64,000 nt of DNA. Source: Nodosilinea nodulosa PCC 7104. GTDB lineage: Bacteria; Cyanobacteriota; Cyanobacteriia; Phormidesmidales; Phormidesmidaceae. The stretch covers positions 2,028,029 through 2,092,028 of the forward strand of contig NZ_JH976537.1 in NCBI RefSeq assembly GCF_000309385.1, in the 5' to 3' direction. This document shows, one piece after another, positions 7,354 through 26,067 of this stretch. Within the stretch, counting starts at the first letter, position 1; the number at the start of each line of letters is the position of its first letter. Made by a program: the position numbers and the translations under genes. The notes beneath the pieces were generated by a model. That model saw only the letters and a list, made by a program, of their open reading frames with translations, ran no database searches and had not been told where the DNA came from.

Positions 7354-7872
7354 CTAGTCCCACCAGTAGCAGATGAGGACGGCGTCAAATTTGTCACCAA
7401 AGGTCTTGCCGCGAAGGCCACCTTTGAGACGTATGGCAAAGTATTCGCGAAACTCCCCATCTTCCTCACCTTGGGGGACATTCCCGCCATAGACATCGAC
7501 AACATCGGCCCGCCATTTCTTGCCTAAATCCATCAGTTGGGCCACTGTCAGGTCTTGGTTTTCGGCCAGCAGATATAGCGTATCCGCGGGGTAGGGGACA
7601 AAATGCATGAGGCTAGTTTCGCGCATGGGGCGGTAATTGGCCATGGCCAGAAGCGTTTCCAGCACACCGTTGAAGCTGAGGCCATCTCGGTCGGGGGCGT
7701 AGATGGACTTAGTAAATAGGAAGCTTTTCCACAGATGGGGTTGCTGTGCCAAGTCGGTGATTACCTCTGGCCCATCGAACTCGTTGAACCGGCGCTGCCA
7801 CACCAGGGCCGCCATCAGCTCTTGAGGTGTGTTGGCTTGAGCAATCGCCTCAATTTTCTCCACCTCAAGCAT
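7354..7872 (-). CDS. Hypothetical protein overlapping the Dnd-associated methyltransferase gene
   Basis: About 172 residues from the ATG at 7872 (another ATG two codons upstream). It starts MLEVEKIEAIAQANTP and is mixed alpha/beta, ending FGDKFDAVLICYWWD. No membrane segment, signal peptide or catalytic motif is recognised. The start overlaps the end of the methyltransferase gene by eight bases, so the two are very probably translated from one message, which suggests a role linked to the phosphorothioation locus. It could be a substrate-binding or regulatory partner, but nothing in the sequence decides this. Confidence 0.65.
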   Translation of the reverse strand: MLEVEKIEAIAQANTPQELMAALVWQRRFNEFDGPEVITDLAQQPHLWKSFLFTKSIYAPDRDGLSFNGVLETLLAMANYRPMRETSLMHFVPYPADTLYLLAENQDLTVAQLMDLGKKWRADVVDVYGGNVPQGEEDGEFREYFAIRLKGGLRGKTFGDKFDAVLICYWWD

Positions 7873-10109: not shown

Positions 10110-11585
10110 ATGAGAACGCTCAGCCTATTTGAGAATGATCGCCTCTCCCTTGACCGCAGCATTGAGCTATCGGCAGAGTCGTTGCGCCACTATGGTTCTT
10201 TGTATAAGCATTGGGCGATCGCGTTCTCGGGCGGCAAAGATTCTTCAGCCACCGTTACATTAGTTGCCGATTTAATCGAGAAGGGGCTGGTGCCTCGGCC
10301 CGCGAGTATTACGGTGCTCTATGCCGATACTCGCCAAGAGCTGCCGCCGCTGCACAATGCCGCCATGGCGCTGCTCGACAAACTCAAGGAACGGGGCTTT
10401 GACACTCGGGTAGTGCTGCCCAAGCTCGACCACCGCTACTTTGTCTATATGTTGGGGCGCGGTGTGCCGCCGCCGTCGAATACATTCCGTTGGTGTACGC
10501 CCAAGCTGAAGGTGATGAGTATGGAGCGGGAGCTAGAGATCCTGCGTCAAGAGCGAGGCGAAAAGTTTCTCATGCTCACGGGGGTGCGGGTGGGCGAATC
10601 TGCCGCCCGCGATCAGCGCATTGCCATGAGCTGTAGCCGCGACGGCGGCGAGTGCGGCCAGGGCTGGTTTCAGCAGACGACCTCTAACGCCGTGGCCGAT
10701 ACCCTGGCCCCGCTGCTGCACTGGCGGGTCTGCCACGTATGGGACTGGCTGGTGCAGGCCGATGTGGAGCTGGGCTACCCCACCTTTGATATTGCCGAGG
10801 TCTACGGCCACGACCCGCAAGATGACCTGGGCGAAACGGAGTCGATCAATGCCCGCACGGGCTGTATTGGCTGCCCCCTGGTTGAGGAAGATGCAGCTCT
10901 AGAAAGAGTTTTAGCGAACCCTAAGTGGGCTTATCTGGCCCCATTGCGGCAGCTGCGCCCGCTGTATTGGGAGGTCAAGAAGCCCCAGTACCGCTTACGG
11001 AAGCACGGGGAAACCAATATCGGTGGTGAATTATCGAGCAAGCAAGGGAGGTTGGGGCCTTTGCATATGCAAGCTCGACGGTTTTTGCTGGAGGCAATTC
11101 AGAATATAGAAGCAGACGTTAATCAAGCTGCTAAAGCCCTAAACAAGCCGGAAATCAGCCTTATCAACGAGCAAGAGCTGCAGCGTATTGAAGATCTTAT
11201 TGCAGCAAACACCTGGCCCGAACGATGGGATGGCACTGAGCCCACGGGTGATCAGCTACTTCCAAAAATCAGCTCAGATGGCAGTGTTCAGCCAATATTT
11301 TTGCGTGGAAAGGAGCAGTCTTTGCCAGAAGTAATTATTGATCTATTGCGATCGCGCCCTGAGCCAATGACAGCTCAACAAATTTATCAAACACTACTAG
11401 AGACCGACAACTATCGATTTTCGGCCTATGATCCAGTTCAAGTTGTGCGGAGTGTTGTAAGACGGCACTGCGAAAATTTAGATCTAAACTATGCCAAAAA
11501 GTTGAAGAAGTATTTTGTAATGACCGCGCCCGGCTATTACACTTTGAAAGATAGTATAAGGTTCACTGAACATCACCAGAACTAG
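10110..11585 (+). CDS. PAPS-reductase-family, DndC-like protein with C-terminal winged helix
   Basis: 491 residues. The N-terminal adenine nucleotide alpha-hydrolase domain has the PP-loop SGGKDS at 40-45, a TFRWCTPKLK segment like that of true DndC, and a cysteine pair TGCIGCPL that may bind an iron-sulfur cluster. From about residue 405 a HARE-type winged helix follows (MTAQQIYQTL, VVRSVVRRHCE, KKYFVMTAPGYYTLKD). PP-loop proteins of this class activate or transfer sulfur, or adenylate a substrate. It is distinct from dndC at 15554 and may add target recognition through the winged helix. It is convergent with dndE and their 3' ends overlap by 23 bases. Confidence 0.8.
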   Translation: MRTLSLFENDRLSLDRSIELSAESLRHYGSLYKHWAIAFSGGKDSSATVTLVADLIEKGLVPRPASITVLYADTRQELPPLHNAAMALLDKLKERGFDTRVVLPKLDHRYFVYMLGRGVPPPSNTFRWCTPKLKVMSMERELEILRQERGEKFLMLTGVRVGESAARDQRIAMSCSRDGGECGQGWFQQTTSNAVADTLAPLLHWRVCHVWDWLVQADVELGYPTFDIAEVYGHDPQDDLGETESINARTGCIGCPLVEEDAALERVLANPKWAYLAPLRQLRPLYWEVKKPQYRLRKHGETNIGGELSSKQGRLGPLHMQARRFLLEAIQNIEADVNQAAKALNKPEISLINEQELQRIEDLIAANTWPERWDGTEPTGDQLLPKISSDGSVQPIFLRGKEQSLPEVIIDLLRSRPEPMTAQQIYQTLLETDNYRFSAYDPVQVVRSVVRRHCENLDLNYAKKLKKYFVMTAPGYYTLKDSIRFTEHHQN

Positions 11586-11970
11586 CTCTCACAGCAAGAG
11601 ACACAAGACTTCCGACACTCTTTAGATCGGAATTGCTGGCAAGATAGCCAATTCCCCTATGCAAGTGCAAGCGAAATTGTTGAGCTAGGGTTTCTCGATT
11701 GCTATCTAAGTGGTCGTCATGACAGCGCTGCTTGAGAGCAAGTGTTAGCTCATCTGCGATCGCACCCCCAAACACCTGCCAGGTCATCTCTATATTGCTA
11801 TCGGTCGTAAACATCACTAAAGACGGCTTGGATGGCTCTGCTAAAGAACAACAAAAGGCCCAGCGGCAGAGAATATTCCACTGATCAATTTTGGTGATGC
11901 GTTTAAGTTTAGTGAGTTGGTCTTTTGCAGATTCAGAGACTCGCACGCGCTCAACCGGCGGTTCTATCAC
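11563..11970 (-). CDS. dndE: DNA sulfur modification protein DndE
   Basis: 135 residues. DndE features are clear: VRVSESAKDQLTKLKRITKI near the N-terminus, ILCRWAFCCSLAEPS, a WQVFGG segment, and the conserved HLHRGIGYLA motif. DndE is a small DNA-binding protein of the DndCDE modification complex, reported to bind nicked DNA. Its ATG overlaps the restored stop of dndD in an ATGA arrangement (11967-11970), so it was translated by coupling to dndD. The IS1-family insertion upstream now separates it from the rest of the operon, so its expression is likely reduced or dependent on readthrough. Confidence 0.88.
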   Translation of the reverse strand: MIEPPVERVRVSESAKDQLTKLKRITKIDQWNILCRWAFCCSLAEPSKPSLVMFTTDSNIEMTWQVFGGAIADELTLALKQRCHDDHLDSNRETLAQQFRLHLHRGIGYLASNSDLKSVGSLVSLAVRASSGDVQ

Positions 11971-12102: not shown

Positions 12103-12948
12103 GGTAGTGCATTAGTGCACGGGAAAGAGGAAAATCAGGCGATACCATCACGAGGACAAGGAAGTCGGCCCCATGACGATTGAGATGACCTGTCCGACCT
12201 GTGGGTCTCATGACATCTCCAAGAACGGCACTAGCCACCGAGGGAAGCAAAACTACAAGTGCCGGGACTGTGGACGTCAATTCGTCGAAGATCCGCAATG
12301 GCGACCGAAGCCGAAGGAGACGAAGGCACTGGTGAATCGGCTGTTACAGGAGAAGATCCCGCTGGCGGGCATTGCGAGGGCCACGGCGGTGTCAGAGAGT
12401 TGGCTTCAAGGTCATGCCAATGCCGTCTATGAGGCGGTTCCCCAAACGGCGGCGGTCATTCCCAAGCCCAAAGGCCCGCTAGCGGTGCAGATGGATGAAT
12501 TGTGGTCTTTTGTCGGTCATAAAGGCAATAAACAATGGGTCTGGTTGGCCATGGATGCCAAGACCCGAGAAATTATTGGTTGCCACATCGGTGACCGCTC
12601 TCGGGAGTCGGCCATCGCCTTATGGCAGTCCATCCCAGCGGTCTATCGACAATGCGCCAAGGTCTACACTGACTTCTGGGAGGCCTACGTCACGGTGATT
12701 CCGAGCAAACGGCATGAGGCCGTGGGCAAAGACAGCGGCTTGACGAGTTATATCGAGCGCCTGAACAACACCCTGAGGCAGCGAATTGCCCGACTGGTGA
12801 GGAAGACCCTGTCGTTCTCCAAGAAGCTCAAGAACCATATCGGGGCGATCTGGCTGTTCATCCATGACTACAATCGCCAAATCAGACAGAAGCTCGCAGA
12901 GCAAGGTGACCTCGTCTTTTCCTCTGGCCTGCACTAAAGTGCACTACC
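12103..12948 (+). mobile_element. IS1-family insertion sequence inside dndD
   Basis: 846 bp. The ends are imperfect inverted repeats: the left begins GGTAGTGCATTAGTGCA, and the right reads GGTAGTGCACTTTAGTGCA on the opposite strand. The 8-bp sequence TAGAGAGT occurs immediately outside both ends (12095-12102 and 12949-12956), the size expected for IS1-type target duplications. The two duplicates are identical and removing the element restores a gene, so the insertion looks recent. It carries one transposase gene, transcribed against dndD. Confidence 0.95.
12173..12937 (+). CDS. IS1-family transposase, single reading frame
   Basis: 254 residues. The N-terminal zinc-finger-like segment has CPTCGS...YKCRDCGRQF, then a helix-turn-helix region. 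The DDE catalytic domain shows the acidic residues in QMDELWSF, YTDFWEAY and SYIERLNNTLRQR. Unlike classical IS1, which needs a frameshift between insA and insB, the protein is encoded in one uninterrupted frame, as in many cyanobacterial and archaeal IS1 relatives. The frame is complete, so the element may be active. Confidence 0.93.
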   Translation: MTIEMTCPTCGSHDISKNGTSHRGKQNYKCRDCGRQFVEDPQWRPKPKETKALVNRLLQEKIPLAGIARATAVSESWLQGHANAVYEAVPQTAAVIPKPKGPLAVQMDELWSFVGHKGNKQWVWLAMDAKTREIIGCHIGDRSRESAIALWQSIPAVYRQCAKVYTDFWEAYVTVIPSKRHEAVGKDSGLTSYIERLNNTLRQRIARLVRKTLSFSKKLKNHIGAIWLFIHDYNRQIRQKLAEQGDLVFSSGLH

Positions 12949-14794
12949 TAGAGAGTAAAATCACCTGGTGGCTAGCATCGGGGAAGTATCGCTCGACTAA
13001 GTTTTCACGGTGAGACGAGTCGAGTCTACCAAGCGGTGTATCGATCGCAATCGGCAGTCGTCGCCCCGATGCTCTGGCCAACCCCCACAAAATAGCAACC
13101 GCCAAAATTTGCTTCTCCCCTGCCGAGATCCGCTGTTTTGGGATTAGTTTACCTTCGTCACCGTAGAGAGATAAGCTAAACGTCTCTGGATCAATATCGA
13201 TTTGCTGCACCAGATTATTTTTGTGGAGTAGGTAAAGAAAACAATCGCGAATACTGGTTTCAAGATCAGCGAGTTTGCGAAGGGTTAGGTTTTGGCGAAA
13301 CTGAACTAGGGTAGCTTGGGCTTTGGCAACGGTACTTAGGAAATGAGCGATCGCCTGCCGATTCAAAATCTGGTCACTGTATTTAGTTAGTTCTTTATGA
13401 GTAGAAATAATTTCTTTTTCTAGCTCGTCGCATTTCTTTTCAAACACGCTTGACTGTTCTTGCAAAACATCGAGATTGGTCTGGGCGATCGCAATATCAG
13501 CTTTGAGTTGGGCATAGACCTCTGGCGAAGCAGCTTTGGCCAGCAAGCGCTCAGTGTTATCAAGGCTGGTTAAGGTTTGCTCAAGGGCTTTGAGTTGATT
13601 TTGAGCGGTTTGCTGCTGGTTAGGCAGCAGCGTATTTAGTAGCAGTGTGAGGTGGTTGATAGCGTTAGCATCTGCCCCTAGCCAAACATCGCTAGATTGA
13701 ATGGTCTGCTCTAAGGACGTGTTTTCCTGGGTTAAAAAGGCTTGGACAGACTGTATCTGTGCGGAACTCAGCCCAGCTGTCGCCAAGATATCCAGCAGCT
13801 TTTGATCGCGCTCGGCAATCAGGTCTTGAGACATTTCAATCTGCTGGCGGCGCAGCTCTTTTTGGCCCTGGGCCTGGGCTTTTTGCAGCAGGGGCTGAAT
13901 CAGCAGCAGGGGCAGCTCGGCGGCGGCCTGGTGGCAGAGCTGGTTACGGATATCGTCGGCGGTTTGTTGTAAGGAGGCGAGCTTGGCCTCTAGCTGAGGG
14001 CGATCGCTGGCAATATCTCCCCCTTTGGTTCTAAAGTTGGCTTCAGCGGTTTGGAGGTTGGTAGTCGCCTGCTCGACTTGCATTTTGAGTTGTTCAAGGC
14101 GGGTTGCTGCGGCCTCCTGGGTAGCTTTTTGCTCGGCAAGGCGGTGTTCAATTTTTTCTAGGTCGTGGAGCTCTTGGGTATTAGCGAGAGACTTTTGTTT
14201 GCGCTGGGTGAGCACATCTAGATCTAGAGCTAGGCGATCGGCCAGTTCTAGACCTAGCATGGCGCGAATGGCTTCCACCACCGGGGCTGGGGGAATAGCC
14301 TGTTCGGCTAGTTCTTTGATTTGCTCGCCATCAAAGAGGAAAAGACTCGAAATGCCCAGGGGCAAGACGGTCTCAATCCATTCATCCCAGGTTTGAACCA
14401 GCACATCGTCAGCCCAGTCATCGACGGAAACATCCAATGTGTCTTTGCCGCCCTTGGGTTGGCGGCTCCAGGTGCGCTGCACCCGAATGGTTTTGGGAAT
14501 GCCGTTGAGGATGTACTCAAAGGCCAGTTCAACGCCCGCGATCGCGTCATCAGGGGCTGCATAGTGAACGCACTGGCTAAGAAAATCGCCATAGCTGAGG
14601 CCGCGTCGGGTGGAGCACTGCGATCGCCCCCCGTACAGTGCCAGCCGCAGGGCATCGAGCAGGGTGGTTTTGCCGCCCCCATTCATGCCGCCAATGAGGA
14701 TGATGGGACAATCAGCGGCACCGGGCCTTAGATCCAGTACCTGCCGTCCCCGATAGGGGCCAAAGTTTTGCAGAACCAGCTCTAGCAGAATCAT
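12944..14794 (-). pseudogene. dndD: dndD, 5' part truncated by the IS1-family insertion
   Basis: Codons 1-615 of dndD, followed by one IS-derived Arg codon and a stop in the IS end. DndD is the SMC/Rad50-like ATPase of the phosphorothioation complex. Visible motifs: Walker A GGMNGGGKTT (35-44), a FLFDGEQI segment, a long coiled-coil middle, the ABC signature ISAGEKQI, Walker B AIDTPLGRLDS, and the strand HQVILLS before the switch region. The restored protein would be 657 residues, normal for DndD; the truncated one lacks the last 42. The start overlaps the HEPN gene stop (ATGA). The ATPase core is nearly complete, so partial activity cannot be ruled out from sequence. Confidence 0.9.
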
Positions 14795-15192
14795 GAGCCT
14801 TGCAGATACTCTGTTACTTGGCTCAGAAAATCTTCAGCGTAGGAATAGCACTCTCTAGCATCGTCTATGGATGAATCAACCAGATCGGCATAATCAGCTT
14901 CTAAACGCTGCTCAAAGGCAAAATGTAGACCTATGGACATCTGCTTGCTAAAGATACCGGTTTTAACAAACTCGCGATCAAAGAGAGAAATAGCTCCTTT
15001 ATGCTTTGATGTGCCCAACTGACGAGATACTAACAATGCCAAAACAGCGTAAAACATAGCATAGTAAAAACGATTTATTGAATCAGCATAAAAATTTTGC
15101 TCAAACAGCAATGCACCTGCTTCCAAAGCTTTTTGTGCTTGCTGAAGTCGTGACTGCACTAAAGCAGCGGTATCTTCTTGCGAATAGCTCAA
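14791..15192 (-). CDS. HEPN-domain protein of an MNT-HEPN pair
   Basis: 133 residues, all helical, with the INRFYYAMFYAVLALL and SKHKGAISLFDREFVKTG segments typical of HEPN proteins that pair with minimal nucleotidyltransferases, and FEQRLEADYADL near the C-terminus. An R-x6-H pattern is present in RQLGTSKH; whether it is the catalytic RNase motif is unclear. In such pairs the HEPN partner is commonly the toxin and the MNT partner neutralises it by AMP transfer. Its start overlaps the MNT gene stop and its stop overlaps the dndD start, so it is locked into the dnd operon. Confidence 0.8.
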   Translation of the reverse strand: MSYSQEDTAALVQSRLQQAQKALEAGALLFEQNFYADSINRFYYAMFYAVLALLVSRQLGTSKHKGAISLFDREFVKTGIFSKQMSIGLHFAFEQRLEADYADLVDSSIDDARECYSYAEDFLSQVTEYLQGS

Positions 15193-15509
15193 GCTACAAT
15201 ACCTTCTTTAAGGATATTACTGATTAGAGGACTGGCTGCATAGAGCCTACTGTCAAACTGCTGGCGCGAGTATTTCACAGTAGTAATAACAACATCATGG
15301 CTAAAGCCAACGTCCCAAGCAACGTAGCTAATTTCTTTCCAGATTTTTCGATCTAACTCTTCAACCACAACGCATACGTCTAGGTCTGATTCGGGTTCGG
15401 CCTCCCCTCTGGCCCGTGAGCCAAAAGCCCAAATGCTGGACTGGGGAAATCGCTCGCGAATTTTGTCAGCAAACTCTATTAATATGCTTTGATCATGGCT
15501 TGACATCAT
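15189..15509 (-). CDS. Minimal nucleotidyltransferase (MNT) of an MNT-HEPN pair
   Basis: 106 residues with the polymerase-beta-type nucleotidyltransferase signature FGSRARGEAEPESDLDVCVV, i.e. GS followed by the D-x-D metal site, intact. This fits MNT antitoxins that adenylylate a HEPN toxin. Two ATGs in a row mark the start. It lies 45 bases after dndC and overlaps the HEPN gene by four bases. The position between dndC and dndD is unusual and suggests the pair is either a passenger or a guard expressed with the modification genes. Confidence 0.85.
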   Translation of the reverse strand: MMSSHDQSILIEFADKIRERFPQSSIWAFGSRARGEAEPESDLDVCVVVEELDRKIWKEISYVAWDVGFSHDVVITTVKYSRQQFDSRLYAASPLISNILKEGIVA

Positions 15510-15553: not shown

Positions 15554-17188
15554 CTAGCTGTAGTCTGCCTCGGGCTCTGCGGCCCTGGGAGGGGCGGCGA
15601 ACCGGATGGCCCCCCACTCGGCCAGGGCTTTGACCTGCTCGACATCGCCCTCGGCGGCGGCGGTTTTGAGGTCGTGGCGGTGGTAGGCTTGGGCGATCGC
15701 ATCATCGCGCGATCGCGAGCTGCTGTCAAAGCATTTTTCCAGCGCCTCAAAGATGCCGACTCGGCGGCCCATGGTGGCGTACTGCCGCTCGGTGTCGAGC
15801 AGTTTGGTCATCAGTTCTAGGTGCATGGGGTCGTCCTGGCAGAGGTCGGCCAGCACGCTCCATTCGTCGCTGCCCAATTGGCTTTGGTCGGCCCCAGGGC
15901 GGGGGTCTTTGAAGATTTCCCCAGTCGCTTTGCGGTAAATGCGAGGCAGCGAGTCATCAAACTCGTGTTTATCTTCGCGCCAGATGCGGCGAATTTCGCT
16001 AAGTTCGGCAGGGGTGATCAGGGTGATATCGTTCATGCCCTCGGGGGCCTGGGCGCGGGCAGTTTTCTGAGCGGTGAGCAGTTTTTTGAGCCACTTTTCG
16101 CGCCAAACGCGGGTGTAGGGGCCGGGGATGGGCAGGGTTTCGTTAGTGCTATGGCGCTGAAAGAGCTGCACTTTGCCCGACATGCGGCGAAAGTCGCGGC
16201 GATCGTGGTCGTTGTAGACATCCAGTTCGTTGCGGAGGTCGAGCAGGGGCTGCATCCAGGCTTTTTCGTCGTCGTTAAGAATCATCGCTTCCATAGAGCG
16301 ATCGCGGCTGACCAGGGTGCAGACCCAGCAGCCAAAACGCGAGTCGCCGCAGCTCGGGGTCGAGCCATCGACCACAAAGGCACATTCGTTGTCGGGGGTG
16401 GCCCCCTGATACATCTCAAACAGGGCTTTGTTGCTGTAGCCCCAGGGGTTGGCGTACTGCATCAGGTACAGCCACACTTCGTCATCGCGCCAGTCTTCGA
16501 TGGGGCTGTAGATCAGGGTGTTGGGCAGGTTGCCCCGGTACAGCAGCGATTGCACCTGGCTGTGGGGCAGGTGGTCGCCCACGTTGCCGACGACGTGCTG
16601 AGCCATAACATTGGCGCGGCGGGGGCTTTCGGCCTTGCGGGTGCCCAGCACCAGCAGCACTTCGCCATTGGCCCGCACGACGTCTTTAATAAAGCGGTTG
16701 GCGGGCCAAATTTTAAGCCGCTCGGTACACCAGCGAAACATGTGGCGCGGGGCCGGATACCCTTTACCGATGAGGTTGACCCAAAAGGTGTCTTTGACCT
16801 CGGGCTGGAGCAGGTGCGCTTCGAAGGGTAGCCCCTGGGCTGGGGCGGTGGTATTGATGCGATCTAGGGACTGGCGCACCCAGGCGGCTACGATGGGGTT
16901 TTCGACCAGGGTATCGGTAGAACAGATGTAGACGGGTTTGGTGAGCTGGTCGGGCGGCAGGGCGGCGAGGGCGTTCCATACCAGTTGCACTACGCAGGTG
17001 CTGTCTTTGCCGCCCGAGTAGCCAATCACCCAGGGCAGGGAGTTTAGGCGGTAGAGTTCCTGAATTTCGGCGGTTAAGGCTCGAATATGCTCAATCAGCT
17101 CAGGAACTGTTCGCTGGGGCGAAGGTGTTGCGAAGCTAGGAAAAACGAGAACGGGCAAGGGAACCTCCATTTGCCAGAGCAGGTTCAC
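15554..17188 (-). CDS. dndC: DNA phosphorothioation sulfurtransferase DndC
   Basis: 544 residues. PP-loop SGGKDS at 58-63, HMFRWCTERLKIWPANRF, VLGTRKAES, and a cysteine cluster SCGDSRFGCWVCT, all characteristic of DndC. This iron-sulfur PAPS-reductase-like enzyme activates the DNA backbone for sulfur insertion, receiving sulfur from a cysteine desulfurase (DndA or IscS). No dndA is in the window, so a host desulfurase must serve. The GTG start at 17188 overlaps the stop of the upstream small gene; an ATG six codons later (17170) is the alternative. An AAGGAG sits just three bases before the GTG. Confidence 0.93.
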   Translation of the reverse strand: MNLLWQMEVPLPVLVFPSFATPSPQRTVPELIEHIRALTAEIQELYRLNSLPWVIGYSGGKDSTCVVQLVWNALAALPPDQLTKPVYICSTDTLVENPIVAAWVRQSLDRINTTAPAQGLPFEAHLLQPEVKDTFWVNLIGKGYPAPRHMFRWCTERLKIWPANRFIKDVVRANGEVLLVLGTRKAESPRRANVMAQHVVGNVGDHLPHSQVQSLLYRGNLPNTLIYSPIEDWRDDEVWLYLMQYANPWGYSNKALFEMYQGATPDNECAFVVDGSTPSCGDSRFGCWVCTLVSRDRSMEAMILNDDEKAWMQPLLDLRNELDVYNDHDRRDFRRMSGKVQLFQRHSTNETLPIPGPYTRVWREKWLKKLLTAQKTARAQAPEGMNDITLITPAELSEIRRIWREDKHEFDDSLPRIYRKATGEIFKDPRPGADQSQLGSDEWSVLADLCQDDPMHLELMTKLLDTERQYATMGRRVGIFEALEKCFDSSSRSRDDAIAQAYHRHDLKTAAAEGDVEQVKALAEWGAIRFAAPPRAAEPEADYS

Positions 17189-17496
17189 TCACTCCTTGGC
17201 ATGTATTTCACCAGTGCTTTCATTACCTCATGGGGCTGGAACTGCAATGGCCTATCGGCATTGGGAGCGCTGAGGAAATCTGTCCACTCGAAAATTTCGG
17301 CAAAGCCGAGCTGATGCAGAGCGACGACGATGGAGCTGACAGACTCCTTGCTAGCAATGACAAGGATTTTGACGGGTTCGCGGTCTGGATGGGGGTAGCT
17401 GTGGAGTTTGAGAGTGAGTTCGAGGTGAACTGGGCCAGACGATTCGGGGTTGAGGATGCGGGCACTGTAGCGGGCTGTGGGTGCTTGGTCTTGCAT
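17185..17496 (-). CDS. Small protein upstream of dndC, unknown
   Basis: 103 residues from the ATG at 17496; a GTG five codons upstream is possible. Not recognised. It reads as an alpha/beta domain with strands HLELTLKLHSY and VKILVIASKES, then SSIVVALHQLGFAEIFEWTDFL. No catalytic motif or membrane segment. Its stop (TGA) overlaps the GTG start of dndC, so it is the first gene of the dndC-MNT-HEPN-dndD-dndE operon. The position corresponds to where dndB sits in other loci, but it is far too short and lacks any DndB feature. Confidence 0.7.
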   Translation of the reverse strand: MQDQAPTARYSARILNPESSGPVHLELTLKLHSYPHPDREPVKILVIASKESVSSIVVALHQLGFAEIFEWTDFLSAPNADRPLQFQPHEVMKALVKYMPRSE

Positions 17497-17502
17497 AGTC
17501 TT

Positions 17503-17569
17503 GTCAACCACTAGGACGTTGCAAGGCAGTCTATCCTGCCTAAAGGTTGACCGTCAACCACTAGGATGT
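17503..17569. promoter_or_regulatory. Candidate operator: direct repeats and palindrome between dnd operon and XRE gene
   Basis: GTCAACCACTAGGACGT at 17503-17519 is repeated at 17553-17569 with one mismatch, 50 bases apart. The second copy forms the palindrome GGTTGAC-C-GTCAACC (17545-17559). The repeats lie between the divergent dnd operon (starts near 17496) and the XRE-type gene (17604). They are good candidates for binding sites of that regulator, controlling both directions. No -10 or -35 boxes are assigned. Confidence 0.5.
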
Positions 17570-17832: not shown

Positions 17833-18789
17833 CTAAATGGCGATTTCCCAGTTTTGGCGGTGCCACTCTAAAGCTTCCAAGCTTGGCAGATAGCGTTGAT
17901 CGTTAGGCAGCAGAATTTCCTCAGTATGAAAATCTTCAATTTTGAGAGATGCCTTTGGTGGTTCCTCAATAAATCGGTTTTCTGGAATAACGATCCGGTA
18001 GCTCTCACTAATTCCAAACCAGCCATGGTCGAAGGCCCAGTGGTGATTTTTGCACAATGCTAAACCATTGACAAAAAGATCGCTACGAAACTCCGAAAAC
18101 GGTTGGATATGTGCTCCATCAACTAGATTCTGACCATCCTGACTTACAACGCGCATTTTACAAAACGCACAACGCTGATCGTAGAGTCTAGTGATGTTCC
18201 GCCGAAAAGCTCCGTTTCGAGCGAAAATCTGATCTTCATTTTTTAATTCTTCAATGCTGTAGATAGAACCGCCCGAGTCAAACAAGGATTGTTGAATGGC
18301 TTCAAATTCGTCATATTTGAATGCCTCTTCAATTTCAGACACATTTTGCGGAAACCATGCCCGAATTAAAATATTGGTTAATTCATTGCGATGCCTTTCA
18401 TCTTGTAGAAGTTGAAAAAGTTCGTTGTCAAGGTATGCATATTTTACTGCTGACCTCAGCAGAGGAAGTGTCCGGAATTTTGCTCTTGCCTGAATCGCTG
18501 CTTCAAACCCAGGATTTGACATCAGGTGCCAAAACTTATCCCCTGTCAGGTGAAAAAACGGCAGGGCAATGTTCGAGTGATGATCACTGGCCACAAACCG
18601 ATGCCAAAACTTGAGAAAATTCGCCGTCAGTTCTGGCGACAGATAAATCTCATTGCGGCCAATGTAGCCTTTCTCAAATAAATCCAGCACCGTCAGCAGC
18701 AAGATCGGCTTGTGGGGGGCAACACCACGGGCCTTATCTACCCGTAGCTTTGCAAATTTTTTAGCATAGAACAAAAAGTTCTTTTCCAT
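17833..18789 (-). CDS. HNH endonuclease with sulfur-binding-like domain (phosphorothioate-dependent type)
   Basis: 318 residues. The N-terminal part has RVDKARGVAPHKPILLLTVL (16-35) and ALPFFHLTGDKFWHL (75-89), the pattern of the sulfur-binding domain of ScoMcrA/SprMcrA-type nucleases. The C-terminal HNH domain has CAFC (207-210), DGAHIQPF (224-231), NGLALCKNHH (241-250) and FDHG. Such enzymes recognise phosphorothioated DNA and cut near it. Its presence beside dnd genes is paradoxical, because an active DndCDE would make the chromosome a target; here dndD is broken. It lies 26 bases after the Dnd-associated protein 4-like gene and is probably in its operon. Confidence 0.8.
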   Translation of the reverse strand: MEKNFLFYAKKFAKLRVDKARGVAPHKPILLLTVLDLFEKGYIGRNEIYLSPELTANFLKFWHRFVASDHHSNIALPFFHLTGDKFWHLMSNPGFEAAIQARAKFRTLPLLRSAVKYAYLDNELFQLLQDERHRNELTNILIRAWFPQNVSEIEEAFKYDEFEAIQQSLFDSGGSIYSIEELKNEDQIFARNGAFRRNITRLYDQRCAFCKMRVVSQDGQNLVDGAHIQPFSEFRSDLFVNGLALCKNHHWAFDHGWFGISESYRIVIPENRFIEEPPKASLKIEDFHTEEILLPNDQRYLPSLEALEWHRQNWEIAI

Positions 18790-18815: not shown

Positions 18816-19268
18816 CTATAGAAATTTTGATAGATCAAAGTCTGTATTAGCCTTCTGAGTTTGTTTTTTCAGCTTCAGTAACAGGAGAATTTGATCTGAA
18901 TAGTCTACGCTACCGCTTAACTCAGCAGCCAAAATCTCTAGGCCACCATTTACATATTGCTCAAAAATTTCGACTCGTATATAGTCATGCACTTCGTCAT
19001 CGCACAAGATTTCTGGATCTCCAGTATGAGCCAAAGCAATCAACTTAATGAGTTCAATGCTGCGAATCTGCTCTTGAAGAACGGCATCCGGGTCTTTTCT
19101 AGAATAGTTGCCCAGCGAGACTCGTCGTGAATTTTGGAATCCTAGCGCAGCAGCAAAAATTACAATGTCTGCATAGGTGCGGAAAGGCCCGCTTGCGCCA
19201 TCGCCTGAGCGCAAATTCCGCACCAGTTCTGCCTTATCCTCTGCAAAATGAACCCTTGCCAGCGCCAT
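18816..19268 (-). CDS. Dnd system-associated protein 4-like
   Basis: 150 residues, starting MALARVHFAEDKAELVRNL, with a SGPFRTYADIVIFAAALGFQ segment and a mostly helical remainder. The DNA phosphorothioation-associated protein 4 family has this length and character, and the location fits; I recognise it with moderate confidence. Such proteins are predicted helical accessory factors without known chemistry. It is followed after 26 bases by the HNH nuclease gene, so the two are likely co-transcribed and may work together. Confidence 0.6.
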   Translation of the reverse strand: MALARVHFAEDKAELVRNLRSGDGASGPFRTYADIVIFAAALGFQNSRRVSLGNYSRKDPDAVLQEQIRSIELIKLIALAHTGDPEILCDDEVHDYIRVEIFEQYVNGGLEILAAELSGSVDYSDQILLLLKLKKQTQKANTDFDLSKFL

Positions 19269-20096: not shown

Positions 20097-22172
20097 TCAG
20101 CCATGGCGATGCACCTCCACAATTTCGGTGAACTCAAACTCATCGGGGCTTTGGCGAATCAGCGGGTAAGTTTCGCTGCCTAGGCGCATCGTCGTATCGC
20201 CCTGAAGGTCATCCCTGGGAGAATTGTAGACCAGCACATATTCTCGCCCCACGCGGGGCAGCATTTCCTCTTCCACCTCACCACGCCACTGGGTCGGGCT
20301 GGCCATCACAATTAACTGATCGGCCAGCCCCGGCAGCAGCTTAGATACCTGCCGCCGGTAGATCTCATCCAGGCTGCCAAAGGGCGAATCCATCACCAGC
20401 GGGAACGTGCTGCTGTCTGGCCCCATCACCAGCTTGTTTTCGCTCCACTGGCGAATGCGCTCCACCACGCTGCCAATAAACGACAGACTGAGAATCTGGT
20501 TTTCCCCGGTCGAGGCTCCCACCAGTACCTCCTGGTTGCCCACCCGCTCCACCAGGTTTAGCTCGTACTTCTCGCTAATGCGGGGAATGTAGGCCTTGAA
20601 AGAAATCTCGCTGTAAAGGGCACTGAGGGTATCTTGCAGCTCCTGGCGAAAGAGAACGTCTTGGTTTTGCTTCAGTTCCTTCAGGCGATCGATCGCATCC
20701 TGGGCCGCCTCAATGCGCTTCACCGCCAGCTGCTGCTTGCTCTGGTTTTGCTTGCGATCGCGCACCTGTTTCCGCAATTGGCTAATCTCAGTGGCCAGCA
20801 GGGCAATCCGCTCCTGGTTGCGGCCCTTTTCTAAAATCAGGCGCTCACTGGTGCGATCGACCTCGTCAATGCGCTCCTGCAATTGGCGAATATCTTCGCG
20901 GGGGCTGGTGCGCAGCTGATCGCGCAGGTCTTCGAGGTCAATCTCGATCTGCGAGAGCTTTTGCTTGCAGTGGTTAATGGTGGCCTGCTCCTGGTCGACC
21001 TCGCGCCAAAAGTCCTCCTGCTGGTCTTCCTGCTGGTTCACCCAGCCCTCCAGCCGGTAGACCGTCGATTGCACATCAGCCAGCCCGGTCTTTTGCAGCC
21101 AGGCTTCTACCGCCTCGCGGTGGGGCGTGCCGGGGTGCAACTCCATACCGCAGATGCAGCGCTGCATTTCCAGCAATTCCTGCACAAATTTGGGCTTCAC
21201 ATCGGCGGGGAGCTGCCCCTTTTCTTCCTTGTCTCGCACGATCGCCCGAAATTTGTCGATCACCGAGGGCAAAAACACCGTGTAGCCCCGGTTGGAGATC
21301 GCCTGCTTAAGCACCTTTTTGGCGTCTTGCAGGCGATCGCGCAGTTCTCGCTCCTGCTCGGTGAGCTGATCCATCCGCCGCTGGAGCGACTCAAACTCCC
21401 CCGACTCGCGCAGGCGCAGGCTGTACTCCTGCTTCAGGGTGGACTGGTGGGCCAGCTCCTGGTCGATCTCGGTCTGTCGGGTTTCCAGGGCGTCGTGGGT
21501 GGCTTCCTTCTCGCGACGCTGGGCCAGCAGGCTCTTGGTCTCGGCATCGCCAATGCCTGAGAGCTCATCTTCTAGGGTTTTGCGGGCGGCATTCAGGTGC
21601 TTGATGGCGTTGTCGAGCACCTTCACCCCCAGCAGCTTTTGGGTGGCCTCGGCGATCTCGGCCCGGTTGTCGGTGCGCACCAGCTGCTCGATGCGCTCGC
21701 CGTCAAAGAAAAAATACTGGTGCAGGCTCTTGGGCAGCATCCGCCCCACCACATCGTCAGGATTTTTCGAGGCGGGCAGGGTAGACCAGCGGCCATCGTC
21801 GCCCACAAACTGCATCGCTACCTCGCTGGCCGACTGGGTGACCGCCTCCCCCCGCTTGGTGGCCTGGCACGATCGCCGCACCCGATACTGTTTGCCGTCG
21901 TGGTCAAAGGCCACCTCAACCCAGCAGCTTACCGGCTCCAGATCCCCCGCCTCCGCCAGCGCCCGCCGGTTCACCAGCTGATCGGGGGAGGCCAGGGCAG
22001 CGGTAAAGCGCTCGTACAGCGCCCAGGTAAAGGCGTTGAGCAGGGCGGTTTTGCCCGAGCCATTGTTGCCGTGAATAACGGTGATATTGCGGTCGCTGGT
22101 CTTGGCAAAGCTCAGCCCGTGCTCGCCATAGAAAGGGCGAAAATTGTAGAGTTTGAGGCTCAACAGCTTCAT
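20097..22172 (-). CDS. SMC/Rad50-like AAA ATPase, DndD-like
   Basis: 691 residues. Walker A GNNGSGKT at 35-42, YFFFDGERIEQL at 153-164, two long coiled-coil arms around CICG (339-342, a reduced zinc-hook-like apex), a GENQILSLSFIGS signature region, and Walker B FPLVMDSPFGSLDE. It is related to DndD but clearly different from the dndD at 12944-14794. It follows the small protein at 22169 with an ATGA overlap and belongs to the minus-strand module that starts with the PLD-helicase. SMC-like ATPases of this type drive DNA-end or modification sensing in several restriction systems; here a role in the restriction half of the Dnd locus is inferred. Confidence 0.8.
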   Translation of the reverse strand: MKLLSLKLYNFRPFYGEHGLSFAKTSDRNITVIHGNNGSGKTALLNAFTWALYERFTAALASPDQLVNRRALAEAGDLEPVSCWVEVAFDHDGKQYRVRRSCQATKRGEAVTQSASEVAMQFVGDDGRWSTLPASKNPDDVVGRMLPKSLHQYFFFDGERIEQLVRTDNRAEIAEATQKLLGVKVLDNAIKHLNAARKTLEDELSGIGDAETKSLLAQRREKEATHDALETRQTEIDQELAHQSTLKQEYSLRLRESGEFESLQRRMDQLTEQERELRDRLQDAKKVLKQAISNRGYTVFLPSVIDKFRAIVRDKEEKGQLPADVKPKFVQELLEMQRCICGMELHPGTPHREAVEAWLQKTGLADVQSTVYRLEGWVNQQEDQQEDFWREVDQEQATINHCKQKLSQIEIDLEDLRDQLRTSPREDIRQLQERIDEVDRTSERLILEKGRNQERIALLATEISQLRKQVRDRKQNQSKQQLAVKRIEAAQDAIDRLKELKQNQDVLFRQELQDTLSALYSEISFKAYIPRISEKYELNLVERVGNQEVLVGASTGENQILSLSFIGSVVERIRQWSENKLVMGPDSSTFPLVMDSPFGSLDEIYRRQVSKLLPGLADQLIVMASPTQWRGEVEEEMLPRVGREYVLVYNSPRDDLQGDTTMRLGSETYPLIRQSPDEFEFTEIVEVHRHG

Positions 22173-22339
22173 TGCACTGCTTCCTTCACAATCCGCAAAA
22201 TATCGGCATTGACCAGGCCGCGCTCGTTGCGATCGAGCCGATCTTTCTCAATTTCGAGCACCTGCTGAATAATCTGTCGCACCTCGGCTGGGGCAGTGTC
22301 GATCGGCTGGTGAACGTCTTTAGCGGTCAGTTTACTCAT
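22169..22339 (-). CDS. Small protein preceding the DndD-like ATPase
   Basis: 56 residues from the ATG at 22339, MSKLTAKDVHQPIDTAPAEV then a helical tail with IEKDRLDRNERG. The start was chosen over an upstream one because the longer N-terminus is low-complexity and a GGAAG site sits before 22339. Its stop overlaps the ATPase start (ATGA), a common arrangement in which a small helical protein accompanies an SMC-like ATPase in DNA modification loci. Probably a subunit of the same complex; no catalytic motif. Confidence 0.7.
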   Translation of the reverse strand: MSKLTAKDVHQPIDTAPAEVRQIIQQVLEIEKDRLDRNERGLVNADILRIVKEAVQ

Positions 22340-22415
22340 CGGAACCGGCTTCCCTGGTGTGTACCTGTTCTGCGACCCAGGCCCCATCCTCCTGAGATAA
22401 GGGCGGTAGAGGGGG

Positions 22416-23117
22416 CTATCTGTAGTCAATGGCCATAGCGTACCGCCCTTTTTCGTAGATGTACTGTAGCAAGGGCTGTAGCGCCAGAATCGGTTCTGGC
22501 TCGTTGGCCATCAGCGGTATGGGAATGGGGGGAATAGGCTGCTGGAGGTTAAAGCGGTATAGATTGGCCAGGGGGCGGCGATCGCCTTTCGATACCAAAA
22601 TTCGGTAGTGGCCGGGCTGTTCCCCCGACATCGGGAGAGGCTGCCCGCCGCGCAGTAGGCCGATTTCCACCAGGTGTGAGGAGCTGGCCAAAATCTGATT
22701 GCGTTTCCGCAGGTAGGCTACTCGCCCCTCTCCAGGGCGCTTGTTTTTGGGCGACAGCAGCTCAAGCACGGTGACAACGGTTCCTGTAGCCACCTCGCGA
22801 ATTTCGAGATAGCGTTCCGTCACTTCCTCTGCCATCGGCACTCTGACCTGTTCGGGCTGCACGGTCGGTACGAAGGTGGCGGTGGCAGTAGAGTCCTGAG
22901 GGCGCTGGTGGGTCACCACGGCAACGTCTGGAATGCCGACTAAAACCGAGTCTTCATCGCTGAAAAAGTAGGTGCGCTTTTCAATCTCAACCCGGTACTT
23001 CTCACTGAGATGATCCACCAGATCGTCAGCGATCGCCACAATCAACCGGCTGTGGATAGACGACCAAAGCTCAGGATTTTCAAGGTAGGGGTTCATGCCT
23101 GGAAAGGGCGATCGCAT
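22416..23117 (-). CDS. DUF4058 family protein
   Basis: 233 residues. It begins MRSPFPGMNPYLENPELWSS and continues with SRLIVAIADDL, IPDVAVV and VTVLELLSPKNKRPG, the usual DUF4058 features. The family is largely cyanobacterial, occurs in multiple copies per genome, and has a fold reminiscent of Uma2-type nucleases; its function is unknown. The start is the ATG before SPFPG. It sits 76 bases before the small protein gene and could be a passenger in the defence operon. Confidence 0.88.
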   Translation of the reverse strand: MRSPFPGMNPYLENPELWSSIHSRLIVAIADDLVDHLSEKYRVEIEKRTYFFSDEDSVLVGIPDVAVVTHQRPQDSTATATFVPTVQPEQVRVPMAEEVTERYLEIREVATGTVVTVLELLSPKNKRPGEGRVAYLRKRNQILASSSHLVEIGLLRGGQPLPMSGEQPGHYRILVSKGDRRPLANLYRFNLQQPIPPIPIPLMANEPEPILALQPLLQYIYEKGRYAMAIDYR

Positions 23118-23178: not shown

Positions 23179-23514
23179 TTAAGCTACCCCATAGCCGGTA
23201 TAGGGGCGTTTATAAGCTGGGTGCAACCCTAAAACGATGTCCTCCTTAGAAATACCCATCTCGACTAGCTCTTGGCCAACATCAATATCGGTTGTGTTTT
23301 GCTGAAGCCAAATCTTACCGTCTTTGATATCGAAATGGAGCACAGTGTGATAAATGCGGTGCAGCCCTCGCCAGCCGACACGCATTAATTGGTAGCGGTC
23401 ATGGGCAGGATCAAAAAAGAGTGCATTCTCGATGTCTTGATCGGTTGATCCATGCTGGCTATGCCGCTCTAAAAGAGTTTGGATAGCCTGACGATAGTGA
23501 GCTAATTTATCCAC
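23179..23514 (-). CDS. xisI: XisI-like protein
   Basis: 111 residues with the XisI hallmarks: MDKLAHYRQAIQTLLE, a DRYQLMRVGW segment, VLHFDIKDGKIWLQQNTT, and LVEMGISKEDIVLGLHPA near the C-terminus. XisI was named from the excision control of the fdxN element in heterocystous cyanobacteria, but homologues are scattered widely and always paired with XisH. Here it overlaps xisH by 13 bases. Direct evidence of recombination control is lacking. Confidence 0.92.
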   Translation of the reverse strand: MDKLAHYRQAIQTLLERHSQHGSTDQDIENALFFDPAHDRYQLMRVGWRGLHRIYHTVLHFDIKDGKIWLQQNTTDIDVGQELVEMGISKEDIVLGLHPAYKRPYTGYGVA

Positions 23515-23918
23515 TGAACAATTTCCTCTAGGACTGGGTTATAAACGATTATTCGTAGCTGATGCCGTTCTATAGCAGTCTGTGCAAAGCGGCTTTGGAA
23601 AAAGGTATCGTAGATTTCTAGTGGTACGGCTAGGTATAGCTGGCGGTCAGCTTCCTTGACCTCTAACATAATTCTATAGTTAAGAAACTGCCCCAGCGCT
23701 GTATGGAAGTCGCTAATTGGCGATGGACTGATAAAGCTTTTAACCTCGACAGCAATTTTATCTTCTCCGCGCTCAGCCGCAATCAAACGCTCCGCAGCTA
23801 AGTCAATTTTGACCTTAACTTCTTCCCACTCCAGCTCTAATGGATCACTGGAAATGCGCCACTGCTCTTTTTTTAACCCCCGTTTAACAGCTTCATGGAA
23901 TAAATCTCTGGCTGCCAT
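23502..23918 (-). CDS. xisH: XisH-like protein (PD-(D/E)XK fold)
   Basis: 138 residues from the ATG at 23918 (MAARDLFHEAVKRGL); a longer reading into the helicase 3' end is not needed. It shows the D...EVK nuclease-like signature in EDKIAVEVKSF, then SDFHTALGQFLNYR. XisH proteins have an endonuclease-like fold. It lies 10 bases after the PLD-helicase stop and overlaps xisI, so the pair is read with the helicase. It could supply a nuclease to that system, or be an unrelated passenger. Confidence 0.92.
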   Translation of the reverse strand: MAARDLFHEAVKRGLKKEQWRISSDPLELEWEEVKVKIDLAAERLIAAERGEDKIAVEVKSFISPSPISDFHTALGQFLNYRIMLEVKEADRQLYLAVPLEIYDTFFQSRFAQTAIERHQLRIIVYNPVLEEIVQWIN

Positions 23919-23928
23919 GGAAGTCGCC

Positions 23929-26067
23929 TCACATATCCAATAAACCGTAGCGCTTTTGCAGGTCGAGCAGCTGCACCCTGGCCTCGCCCGCATTGTCGGC
24001 TAACTGAGCAAATTCCACAAAGCGCCTCAGTTCTTTTTTCAGCAGGCTCCGCTCCACTGCCAACGAGTCTCCCTCCAGGTTGGGGGGCACTACAATCATG
24101 TCAAAAATGGTGGCGCGATCTTTGCCAGGAGCCCGCCGCAGCACCCGACCCCGCCGCTGCACAAACTGGCGCGGGTTACCGCTGCTAGCCATAATCACCG
24201 CCGTCTGGGTGGCGGGGATATCGACCCCTTCATCCAGGCAGCGGATGGCCACTAGCCCCTGCAATTCCCCTGATTCAAACTGCTGCCTCAGGTCTTCGCG
24301 CTCGTCTAGGGTGGTGTCTGCGGTGTAGGTATTGACCCGGTAGCCCAGCTCTTTGCCCAGCAGCGCCGTGACCGCCTCGACGTAGCGATAGTTCTCCTGG
24401 GCAACCTCGCTTTCGATGCTACCGTCGCCGCAGTAAAACAGGGTATGGGAGGTGTCGAGGCGATCGCTCATCAGCGATCGCAGCGCCTGTAGCTTATTGG
24501 CCGCGTTACCAATCAGTCGCGATCGCTGGTTGAGCAGCCCCTTGATCTTTTCCTCTAGCTCGCTGTCGCCCATGGAGGCTAGCTGACCAATTTTCTGGGT
24601 GAGTGCGGCGTAGCGCTGGGCCTCCTCCTCCGTCAGTTCCACCAGCACAGGGTAGTAGCGGTAGTGGACGAGGGCACCCTGGGCGATCGCATCGGCCAGG
24701 GTAAACTCCGGCTCCAGCACCGGCCCAAAGTAGTTGAAAATGCCCTCGGTGCCCACTTCGTCAAAGTAGCGCTCCGGCGTTGCTGACAGCGCCAGCCGCA
24801 GCCCCACTGTGCGAGGCAGGCTCTGCTCTAGCCGTTTGGCCCCCAGGTTGTGGGCTTCATCCCCAACAATTAATGTCTTTTCAGGAAAATAGGGCAGCTG
24901 CGACTGTAACCCATGGCTCATCAGGGTGGCGTTGGTTGTGAGCACAGTCACAAAGGGCTGATAGCCCGATCGCACGCTGTAGAGCTGGCTCAACAGTCGA
25001 TCTTGCCACTGCCTGACGTTCTCGTAGGCCAGGATTGGCTCTAGGCCAAACTTGCGGCACTCCCGCGCCCACTGGGTGACTAAATGGCGGTACGGACACA
25101 CCACAATCAGCGCCTGAAGCTGAATTTTGTCGTACAGTGCCGCTGCGATCGCCAGCGCCGTAATCGTTTTGCCGCTGCCCGTCGCCATCTTCAGCGTGCC
25201 GCGCCCTTTATTGGCAAACCAGTTGGCGATCGCCTGCTGCTGGTAAGGGCGCAGAGTGATGTTCAGCGGCAGGGCTGGAGTACCCCCGCTAAGCGCCTCC
25301 GGGGCTGAGGAACTATCTATGTTGTAATGCCCCTGTTCGGTAGCAACCCTGGGCTCCTGAGTGGGCGGTTGGGGTGGGCAGAGTTTGAGGAGCGATCGCG
25401 CCACCGCCTCAGGAAAGGCCATTACCTCCACATGCTTCGTCTGGTCATTCCACAAATCTTGAAAATGCCTCGCCTTTTGTAAAGCTCTCTGCCTCACCCC
25501 TTCATCCCAGGAGCAGTAGACGTCCAGACATTCAAAGTTATCGATCAGCGCACTGGCGCTCTCATTGGCCGACCCAGTGAACGCCACCACATGACCCTCG
25601 CTATCTACAAAGATGCCCAACTTCTCGTGGTAGATGCCCCGCTGCCGTAGGGTTTTCGGCACCGCCAGCTTAATTTCCAGCAGGCCCTTACTCAGCAACC
25701 ACACCAGAGCCCCTAGCCGATCTTGAATCACCTGCGGCAGTTCTTCTTCCAGCTCTCGCAGCAGCGCCGCCTCGATTGCCTGCTCCCGGTTCTTCAGCCC
25801 CTGCTCAATTGCCTGCACATCGTCTTCAGACAGCTGCGGCGACGTAATCAGGCGCATCTGCCCCCCCGATCGCACAAACGCCGTCAACCCCTGAGCCACA
25901 CAGGCCATCGACGAACTCGAAAAATAGCCCACCGCCCGGTTGTACACCGTCGCCTGCTCCAGGCACGGAACATAAAAATCGTTGACGATGCTGCGATCGC
26001 TACTGCGATACTCGTCCCGAATTGTCAAATCCTTCAGGCTCACCCAGGCTCCTGCGATAGCCAGCAT
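23929..26067 (-). CDS. PLD-DEAH helicase, Dnd-type restriction enzyme
   Basis: 712 residues. The N-terminal phospholipase-D-like domain carries HEK (147-149) and GSANES (165-170). A superfamily 2 helicase follows, with Walker A ATGSGKT (295-301), DEAH (403-406), LALSATP, RCLDEGVDIP and the arginine-finger motif QRRGRVLRR. This combination matches the family annotated as a DNA phosphorothioation-system restriction enzyme; PLD-helicases also occur in other defence systems. It would recognise and degrade unmodified or foreign DNA. It is the first gene of the minus-strand module next to the tRNA-Cys. Confidence 0.8.
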   Translation of the reverse strand: MLAIAGAWVSLKDLTIRDEYRSSDRSIVNDFYVPCLEQATVYNRAVGYFSSSSMACVAQGLTAFVRSGGQMRLITSPQLSEDDVQAIEQGLKNREQAIEAALLRELEEELPQVIQDRLGALVWLLSKGLLEIKLAVPKTLRQRGIYHEKLGIFVDSEGHVVAFTGSANESASALIDNFECLDVYCSWDEGVRQRALQKARHFQDLWNDQTKHVEVMAFPEAVARSLLKLCPPQPPTQEPRVATEQGHYNIDSSSAPEALSGGTPALPLNITLRPYQQQAIANWFANKGRGTLKMATGSGKTITALAIAAALYDKIQLQALIVVCPYRHLVTQWARECRKFGLEPILAYENVRQWQDRLLSQLYSVRSGYQPFVTVLTTNATLMSHGLQSQLPYFPEKTLIVGDEAHNLGAKRLEQSLPRTVGLRLALSATPERYFDEVGTEGIFNYFGPVLEPEFTLADAIAQGALVHYRYYPVLVELTEEEAQRYAALTQKIGQLASMGDSELEEKIKGLLNQRSRLIGNAANKLQALRSLMSDRLDTSHTLFYCGDGSIESEVAQENYRYVEAVTALLGKELGYRVNTYTADTTLDEREDLRQQFESGELQGLVAIRCLDEGVDIPATQTAVIMASSGNPRQFVQRRGRVLRRAPGKDRATIFDMIVVPPNLEGDSLAVERSLLKKELRRFVEFAQLADNAGEARVQLLDLQKRYGLLDM

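Follow-up and report, generated by a model that had tools for sequence, protein, structure and literature searches.

Enzymes that join a sulfur-binding domain (SBD) to an HNH nuclease domain lie near dnd genes in fewer than 3.6% of cases according to PMC7461809, and SBD-HNH proteins in Dnd loci are already known from this paper and from PMC10853773. Among these, nucleases with wHTH(SBD), SAD and HNH domains in Dnd neighbourhoods were proposed as a restriction component (PMC10853773). SspE and DndI are phosphorothioate (PT)-sensing nickases able to live with self-marks (PMC11662687). A DndCDEA-PbeABCD locus has been described (PMC6459918), and PMC10853773 presents PbeD as the DndE cognate of the CxC ATPase, suggesting that DndE versions co-evolving with their own ATPase could be a source of motif diversity. 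For DndC, predicted structures and mutants led to a loop with the pattern GYPxPxxxFRW being put forward as the specificity loop (PMC12193691).

Comparison of the window (the whole 64,000-nucleotide stretch of Nodosilinea nodulosa PCC 7104 DNA that was analysed) with the DndCDEA-PbeABCD locus shows that it likewise contains PbeA, PbeC, PbeD, DndC, DndD and DndE together with a PbeB-like gene, but has an additional SBD-HNH gene and a broken dndD (Table 1). In terms of DndCDE-PbeABCD gene content, PbeA, PbeC, PbeD, DndC and DndE are present, and an intact DndD is lacking. The position of the nuclease gene and the neighbouring phosphorothioation locus, both reported by a first-pass annotation of this DNA, were borne out, with DndC, DndD, DndE, PbeD, PbeC and PbeA all found. 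The PbeB-like ORF (86 aa) is at the expected place and matches a home-made profile; PADLOC, NCBIfam and Pfam give no match for it, and the small protein between SBD-HNH and dndC obtains no name from Pfam or NCBIfam. A search of DndC against the PDB returned nothing at E 0.001, and in a tblastn search of DndC against plasmids 2312 records match, of which 29 extend over 80% of the query. The interval from pbeA to the PbeB-like ORF contains a DUF4058 gene (22416-23117) as well as XisH and XisI (23179-23993). In the second DndC-like protein the loop triplet is SNT, as in 7 of the 8 proteins of this type with a readable loop (that of the window counted, and two coming from one organism), the other having SNV; the locus may therefore encode two PT writers with different motifs.

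Table 1. Features of the Dnd-Pbe locus in the window, in descending order of position.
Feature	Position	Strand	Remarks
PbeA (PLD/HKD-SF2 helicase)	23929..26067	minus	
PbeB-like small protein	22169..22429	minus	from position and home-made profile
PbeC (CxC/DndD-like ABC ATPase)	20097..22172	minus	
PbeD (dnd_assoc_4, DndE-like fold)	18816..19268	minus	5 bp ahead of SBD-HNH ORF
SBD-HNH nuclease gene	17833..18789	minus	318 aa, ATG start
Sulfur-binding domain (SBD)	18340..18789	minus	residues 1-150; pocket H26, K27, L76, P77, H80
HNH half of SBD-HNH	17833..18228	minus	residues 188-318; H227, N241, H249, H250 and C207, C210, C246
orf108, small protein between SBD-HNH and dndC	17185..17511	minus	
DndC sulfurtransferase, full length	15554..17188	minus	TIGR03183, 654 bits
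DndC loop GYPAPRHMFRW, triplet RHM	16730..16762	minus	counterpart, by sequence, of the specificity loop of PMC12193691
Nucleotidyltransferase (toxin-antitoxin type)	15189..15509	minus	
HEPN protein	14791..15192	minus	
dndD, interrupted by IS1 after VILLS	12944..14794	minus	
IS1-family insertion, 846 bp	12103..12948	plus	8-bp target duplication at 12095-12102 and 12949-12956
Severed 3' end of dndD, ~45 codons	11967..12102	minus	
DndE	11563..11970	minus	PF08870, E 7e-41
Second DndC-like sulfurtransferase, divergent	10110..11585	plus	SGGKDS present; triplet SNT; below DndC cut-off
DNA phosphorothioation-associated methyltransferase	7865..9958	minus	TIGR04096

Like ScoMcrA, SprMcrA, EcoWI and the Hga SBD, the window protein has the SBD fold with its sulfur pocket, and it carries an HNH domain. 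The closest PDB entry to its N-terminal domain is SBDHga1 (8h0l), matched by phmmer over residues 5-144 (E 7e-20), and the five pocket residues are identical to those of the Hga domain in this alignment. Superposed on the PT-DNA complex of the Hga SBD (8h0l), the AlphaFold model (mean pLDDT 80.7, pTM 0.53) reaches a target TM of 0.90 at rmsd 1.7 A; the TM is 0.70 for the ScoMcrA SBD 5zmo and 0.61-0.67 for the SprMcrA SBD entries. The structural comparison proposed with the first-pass annotation thus supports its domain call. The HNH domain was recognized by Pfam HNH_2 (E 8e-10), and TagI (6ghs) was also matched in both sequence and structure comparison. The NCBIfam model for PT-DNA restriction enzymes, NF045808, matched with E 2e-35 and 122 bits, below its cut-off of 180, as it did in the genome search; since the model is of the type "exception", the missed cut-off weighs little. 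The nearest named relatives are from Nodosilinea, Leptolyngbya and their kin, at 72-73% identity. The protein shares with the wHTH(SBD)+SAD+HNH nucleases the SBD-HNH combination in a Dnd neighbourhood but no SAD/SRA domain was found in it. Like SspE and DndI, it is a nuclease that has to live with PT marks on the DNA of its own cell; unlike them, it has an SBD at the N-terminus, a different PT-sensing domain, and no DUF262 NTPase domain.

Integrity of the nuclease was assessed in 62 loci with full-length SBD-HNH and DndC (33 new, 29 old, window excluded), the set also used for the replication, triplet, tree and K-class analyses below. None of the 62 sequences, all beside full-length DndC, varies at the pocket proline, at the histidines and asparagine of HNH or at the three cysteines that were checked, and the HNH residues and cysteines of Table 1 are also invariant in the 34 rows of an alignment (A1) that includes the window. 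Over pairs that share rows, median dN/dS was about 0.15 in the HNH half and 0.17 in the SBD (254 and 250 pairs) and 0.09 in DndC (254 pairs), which indicates that the nuclease is under purifying selection while the writer is present. Loss of catalysis was rejected on the invariance of the HNH residues.

The insertion in dndD, noted in the first-pass annotation, is real: it is an IS1 element flanked by an 8-bp target duplication. Among the IS1 copies listed for the genome, two more are full-length at 100% identity and one is at 84%, with some fragments. The insertion is probably young and particular to this strain, because of the duplication and the two further full-length identical copies. The part of DndD that it removes includes a conserved STDTE stretch; since dndD is truncated ahead of this stretch, PT marking may have been lost in the window strain. 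The second DndC-like gene, which is open in the window, would presumably need DndD too.

The first-pass annotation expected this type of nuclease and Dnd modification to be mutually toxic. In a survey of 386 genomes of the window's phylum, 40 contained an SBD-HNH relative (E 1e-10) and 94 a DndC over the cut-off. The opposite of exclusion was seen, with dndC in 37 of the 40 genomes with SBD-HNH and 57 of the 346 without it (Fisher p 2e-22, indicative only since the genomes are related). Separation from the host dnd cluster, an expectation from the literature rather than a strict criterion, is accordingly not the pattern in these 40 genomes. Within the family of G153, an SBD-HNH relative (E 1e-30) was found in 89 of 217 genomes and DndC in 210. 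Mutual exclusion of SBD-HNH and Dnd was rejected on this genome co-occurrence.

Eighty loci were fetched, comprising 40 regions at matches from the 386-genome survey (L034-L073) and 40 chosen from the better-scoring matches in the family of G153, in genomes new to the analysis (L213-L252); a DndC match of any kind was present in 73 of the 80, which, given this choice, is no estimate of linkage frequency. Within the 73, 8 copies of SBD-HNH and 3 of DndC (one of the latter, L215, close to a contig end) were broken, the remaining 65 and 70 being full length; DndD was full length in 59. By the terms of the first-pass annotation, many genomes with intact dndCDE and an active form, carried without cost, would speak against its conflict; cost aside, in 44 of the 73 loci SBD-HNH and all three of DndC, DndD and DndE are full length, and part of the remainder stop at a contig or stretch end. 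Its suggestion that the dndD insertion relieved the conflict does not hold as a general explanation, in view of these 44 loci and of the recent look of the window IS1.

The usual gene order is PbeB-C-D, SBD-HNH, DndC, D, E, with PbeA ahead and inverted in some loci. SBD-HNH and dndC are on the same strand in 65 of 65 loci and adjoin in 10 of these; pbeD is at most 75 bp away in 54 of 59, measured from stop to ORF rather than to the start codon and with the window counted. Unlike the ScoMcrA-type enzymes, rarely found near dnd genes, the cyanobacterial SBD-HNH gene often belongs to a Dnd-Pbe locus. Among 80 named relatives, 47 have no DndC, DndD, DndE, PbeC or PbeD in the fetched flank, a count that includes some short flanks and disregards PbeA, PbeB, DndC-like and methyltransferase genes. 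Several of the closest relatives of the window protein come from loci that lack a full-length DndC and contain a divergent DndC-like gene.

Broken SBD-HNH beside full-length DndC occurs in L038, L057, L072, L073, L214, L224, L243 and L250. These copies suggest that SBD-HNH is more dispensable than DndC, or is at times costly; a cost is possible because the gene is broken in 8 of the 73 loci.

Comparison of closely related loci revealed that the SBD is exchanged separately from the nuclease half. Between L064 and L051, the HNH half is 98% identical, DndD 94%, DndE 92% and PbeC 90%, as against 44% for the SBD, 55% for PbeD and 81% for DndC. At the DNA level, PbeD plus SBD (57-72%) and the DndC centre (59-78%) form two divergent tracts, with about 2.4 kb at 84-98% between them. 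L058 shows the same two-tract DNA mosaic in comparison with L049 and with L052.

A partial Mantel scan was performed for SBD identity given HNH identity over the 34 rows of A1 (n = 22-30 per other gene). The SBD was followed by DndC 101-220 (r up to 0.47, n = 30) and by PbeD (up to 0.65, n = 24), both with 0 of 2000 permutations, and not significantly by PbeC (n = 23), DndD (n = 25), DndE (n = 22) or the DndC ends. The HNH windows were also null, partly by construction because HNH was the control; the DndC ends track HNH instead. Replication in loci from genomes new to the analysis gave r 0.79 for DndC 151-190 (n = 33) and 0.92 for PbeD (n = 32), and no significant value for PbeA (n = 20), PbeC (n = 22), DndD (n = 29, p 0.115) or DndE (n = 25). 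A second DndC stretch, 331-400, follows too, more weakly (r 0.39). Over all loci, DndD gave r 0.21 (p 0.038), which vanishes under two backbone controls; under these controls DndC (0.65, n = 62) and PbeD (0.82, n = 54) remain, and PbeC, DndD and DndE are null. The DndC peak window contains the published specificity loop, the GYP of which begins at aa 153 of the L049 ORF; the scans preceded the comparison with the loop description of PMC12193691, though its title was known.

PbeD was examined further. Its model (pLDDT 80.7) is best matched by DndE structures (7x4e, 4lrv) with probabilities up to 0.97, E 0.05-0.2 for the best and TM about 0.56-0.65 of the target, which agrees with its description as a DndE cognate in PMC10853773. 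From size and place, we take the PbeD of the literature to be dnd_assoc_4. In loci without SBD-HNH, PbeD is coupled to parts of DndC (n = 19 and 29), and its coupling to DndD, DndE and PbeC is not significant. In SBD-positive loci with DndD as the control, PbeD correlates with PbeC (0.60), DndC (0.42), DndD (0.40) and DndE (0.34), so that under this control DndC does not stand out in the set.

The SBDs fall into two classes, K (mostly HYPF...LQPKT) and R (mostly ALPF...GGRPQT), the K class comprising all SBDs not in R. An R-class SBD is accompanied by the DndC loop triplet RxR in 15 of 16 loci, and a K-class SBD by other triplets in 44 of 46; the exceptions are L062 (R-class SBD with RRG) and L067 and L234 (K-class SBD with RHR). 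L060 and L061 have the same SBD class and different DndC loops. On a quick tree of HNH and the DndC ends, in which 13 of 59 inner branches are starred, at least 8 class changes fall on starred branches, and the best tree has 11. Among 8 independent pairs, the third residue of the DndC loop changed the same way in 6 (5 in some draws), the opposite way in none, and was unchanged in 2-3; a sign test gave a median p of 0.031 (range 0.031-0.0625).

Leave-one-out class assignment was carried out for 50 of the 62 loci, leaving aside loci without PbeD and L041, L034, L068, L043 and L044. The class was recovered in 50 of 50 by DndC 151-190 and by DndC 191-235, and in 49 by PbeD 56-110; most of PbeD, the SBD and DndC 101-400 track class. 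Few of the R rows track class over HNH 248-end (1 of 11), DndC 401-540 (2 of 11) and DndC 21-95 (3 of 11), and none do for DndD (0 of 10), DndE (0 of 8) or PbeC (0 of 8). The border in the nuclease is blurred, with residues 188-247 tracking class in 7 of 11 R rows; together with the count for 248-end, this puts the end of the exchange somewhere from the linker to midway through the HNH half. PbeD thus follows class, and DndE and PbeC do not. Under the proposal of PMC10853773, DndE versions co-evolving with their ATPase would set the motif; in these loci, by contrast, it is PbeD and not DndE that moves with the DndC centre and the SBD. DndE and DndD as the partner tracking the SBD were rejected by the scans and the class assignment.

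Within the K class alone, DndC 151-190 shows no coupling (r 0.04, n = 46), and PbeC, DndD and DndE do give signal. The coupling is a two-class switch, not finer tuning inside the larger K class. The published triplet code assigns both RxK and RxR to GGCC (PMC12193691), and therefore does not predict the separation of the classes. The window triplet RHM is outside this code, several of the closest relatives of its nuclease lack a full-length DndC nearby, and the window dndD is broken, so that a pairing of SBD and DndC is a possibility only in the window itself.

The conflict expected between nuclease and writer probably does not exist, because the SBD has been swapped repeatedly with the part of DndC thought to choose the mark sites. 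We favour, with a confidence somewhat above even, an explanation in which the nuclease is a component of the Dnd-Pbe locus whose SBD is matched to the local DndC, and in which it most likely docks on the cell's own PT marks with its cutting restrained there. The domain identity, the complete HNH residues under purifying selection, the place in the operon beside intact writers and the repeated co-switching of SBD, PbeD and DndC centre are observed; that this co-switching reflects a positive match to the self-mark is inferred, as are all the steps by which the nuclease would be activated or restrained. The DndC centre would set sulfur placement, and PbeD (with its DndE-like fold, and with the ATPase PbeC) and the SBD would be two readers of one motif. 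The HNH domain, as its conserved residues predict, would be an active nuclease; the SBD would dock on the cell's own marks, and cutting would be held back at self-marks and released on invading DNA, through a restraint perhaps akin in logic to that of SspE or DndI, without their NTPase domain. On balance we also lean, a little less firmly, towards an exchangeable specificity cassette, in which the DndC centre as writer and PbeD and the SBD as readers switch jointly while the catalytic HNH end, DndD, DndE and PbeC stay, and the nuclease reads its own mark. The first-pass annotation had suggested that the protein reads the self-mark without cutting it. The tie to the self-mark gains support from the tracking of the DndC centre by SBD class, while the absence of cutting finds no support in sequence, with invariant HNH residues (62/62) and a dN/dS of about 0.15. 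That the protein is a non-cutting reader, merely marking or recruiting, would account for the tolerance of intact writers and nothing further; with the HNH residues and three checked cysteines invariant and under such constraint, we regard this as the least probable reading. Scarcely more probable is that the nuclease is toxic with PT and survives in this strain since IS1 stopped the marking: dndD is indeed truncated ahead of the STDTE stretch, but full-length writers stand beside SBD-HNH in 44 of 73 loci and the insertion looks recent.

The same co-switching is predicted, and every co-switching result fitted, if the protein is an ordinary type IV nuclease for foreign PT-DNA, with an SBD swapped together with DndC so that the self-mark goes unseen, an explanation that we consider a serious but clearly less probable one. 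Known SBD-HNH enzymes cut PT-DNA, and differing motifs were offered in PMC7461809 as one explanation for rare co-occurrence; the 47 of 80 named relatives without the five genes in their flanks are also as free-standing type IV enzymes would be. For avoidance, however, mismatch alone would do, whereas the pairing is near one-to-one (50/50 for DndC 151-235), and the similar pairing of PbeD, which has the fold of a DNA scanner, is left unexplained, as is the operon location. Further, the tyrosine that contacts GPSGCC in ScoMcrA, and is known as such a contact in SBDs (PMC6224610, PMC7470945), is present in 44 of 46 K-class SBDs, and 33 of the 46 K-class loci have the DndC triplet RxK published for GGCC, which together point towards reading of self. 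Self-reading is favoured over avoidance on the strength of this nearly one-to-one pairing, of the way PbeD goes along with it and of the operon organization. If avoidance were true, K and R strains could restrict each other's marked DNA. A rather improbable alternative is that only the match between PbeD and DndC is selected, the SBD being carried along beside pbeD. PbeD is coupled to DndC also where SBD-HNH is absent, most of the switches in the tree concern loci where PbeD is adjacent, and PbeD and the SBD move in one tract. Yet across the 50 loci the three SBD parts agree with class in 49, 50 and 50, compared with 49 for PbeD 56-110, and no locus among them combined a switched PbeD with an SBD that had stayed behind or was chimeric (the first third of PbeD disagrees in 3). 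In addition, the SBD-negative loci couple partly other DndC windows (41-100, 141-180, 201-280). In the loci without adjacent PbeD, only 10 in number with L241 omitted, the SBD and DndC classes match in 8 and mismatch in 2.

No description of co-switching between SBD, DndC and PbeD was found in the open-licence papers searched; in the excerpted text of PMC8569181, ScoMcrA appears in the reference list only, with no SBD or HNH. New here is the exchange of the SBD as a module with PbeD and the DndC centre, with the HNH end, the DndC ends, DndD, DndE and PbeC left behind. An apparent paradox, a nuclease of a PT-cutting type beside a PT maker, thereby becomes a testable pairing. The exchange also provides an evolutionary assay, independent of structure prediction, that locates the choice of PT motif in the DndC centre and points to PbeD as a protein likely to read the motif. 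Swaps between the natural K and R classes offer a way to ask how a defence nuclease leaves marked self-DNA intact, and the cassette, if true, would parallel for PT the swapping of target-recognition domains in restriction-modification systems.

Several loci depart from the usual arrangement. L064 contains a DndB/DGQHR-domain gene (7891-9543, plus) on the opposite strand between SBD-HNH and dndC; spacers of 1.6-2.0 kb like this one occur in many loci, with gene content searched in L064 only. The lone SBD-HNH genes of L037, L040 and L192 each adjoin a conserved gene (KPKGWYxEIVIRP...VDGYE) with a product of about 290-314 aa; Pfam and NCBIfam give no match for the copy in L037, and the genomes of L037 and L040 have DndC elsewhere. 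In L133-L137, L139-L141, L143 and L039, which carry close relatives of the window gene, a tandem stand-alone SBD (~187-213 aa) lies just ahead of SBD-HNH. The DndC slot in these loci holds a DndC-tail-like protein of 133-141 aa (L133, L134, L141, L039) or gives no DndC match, and the tandem-SBD loci may represent a version of the system that has been split or modified.
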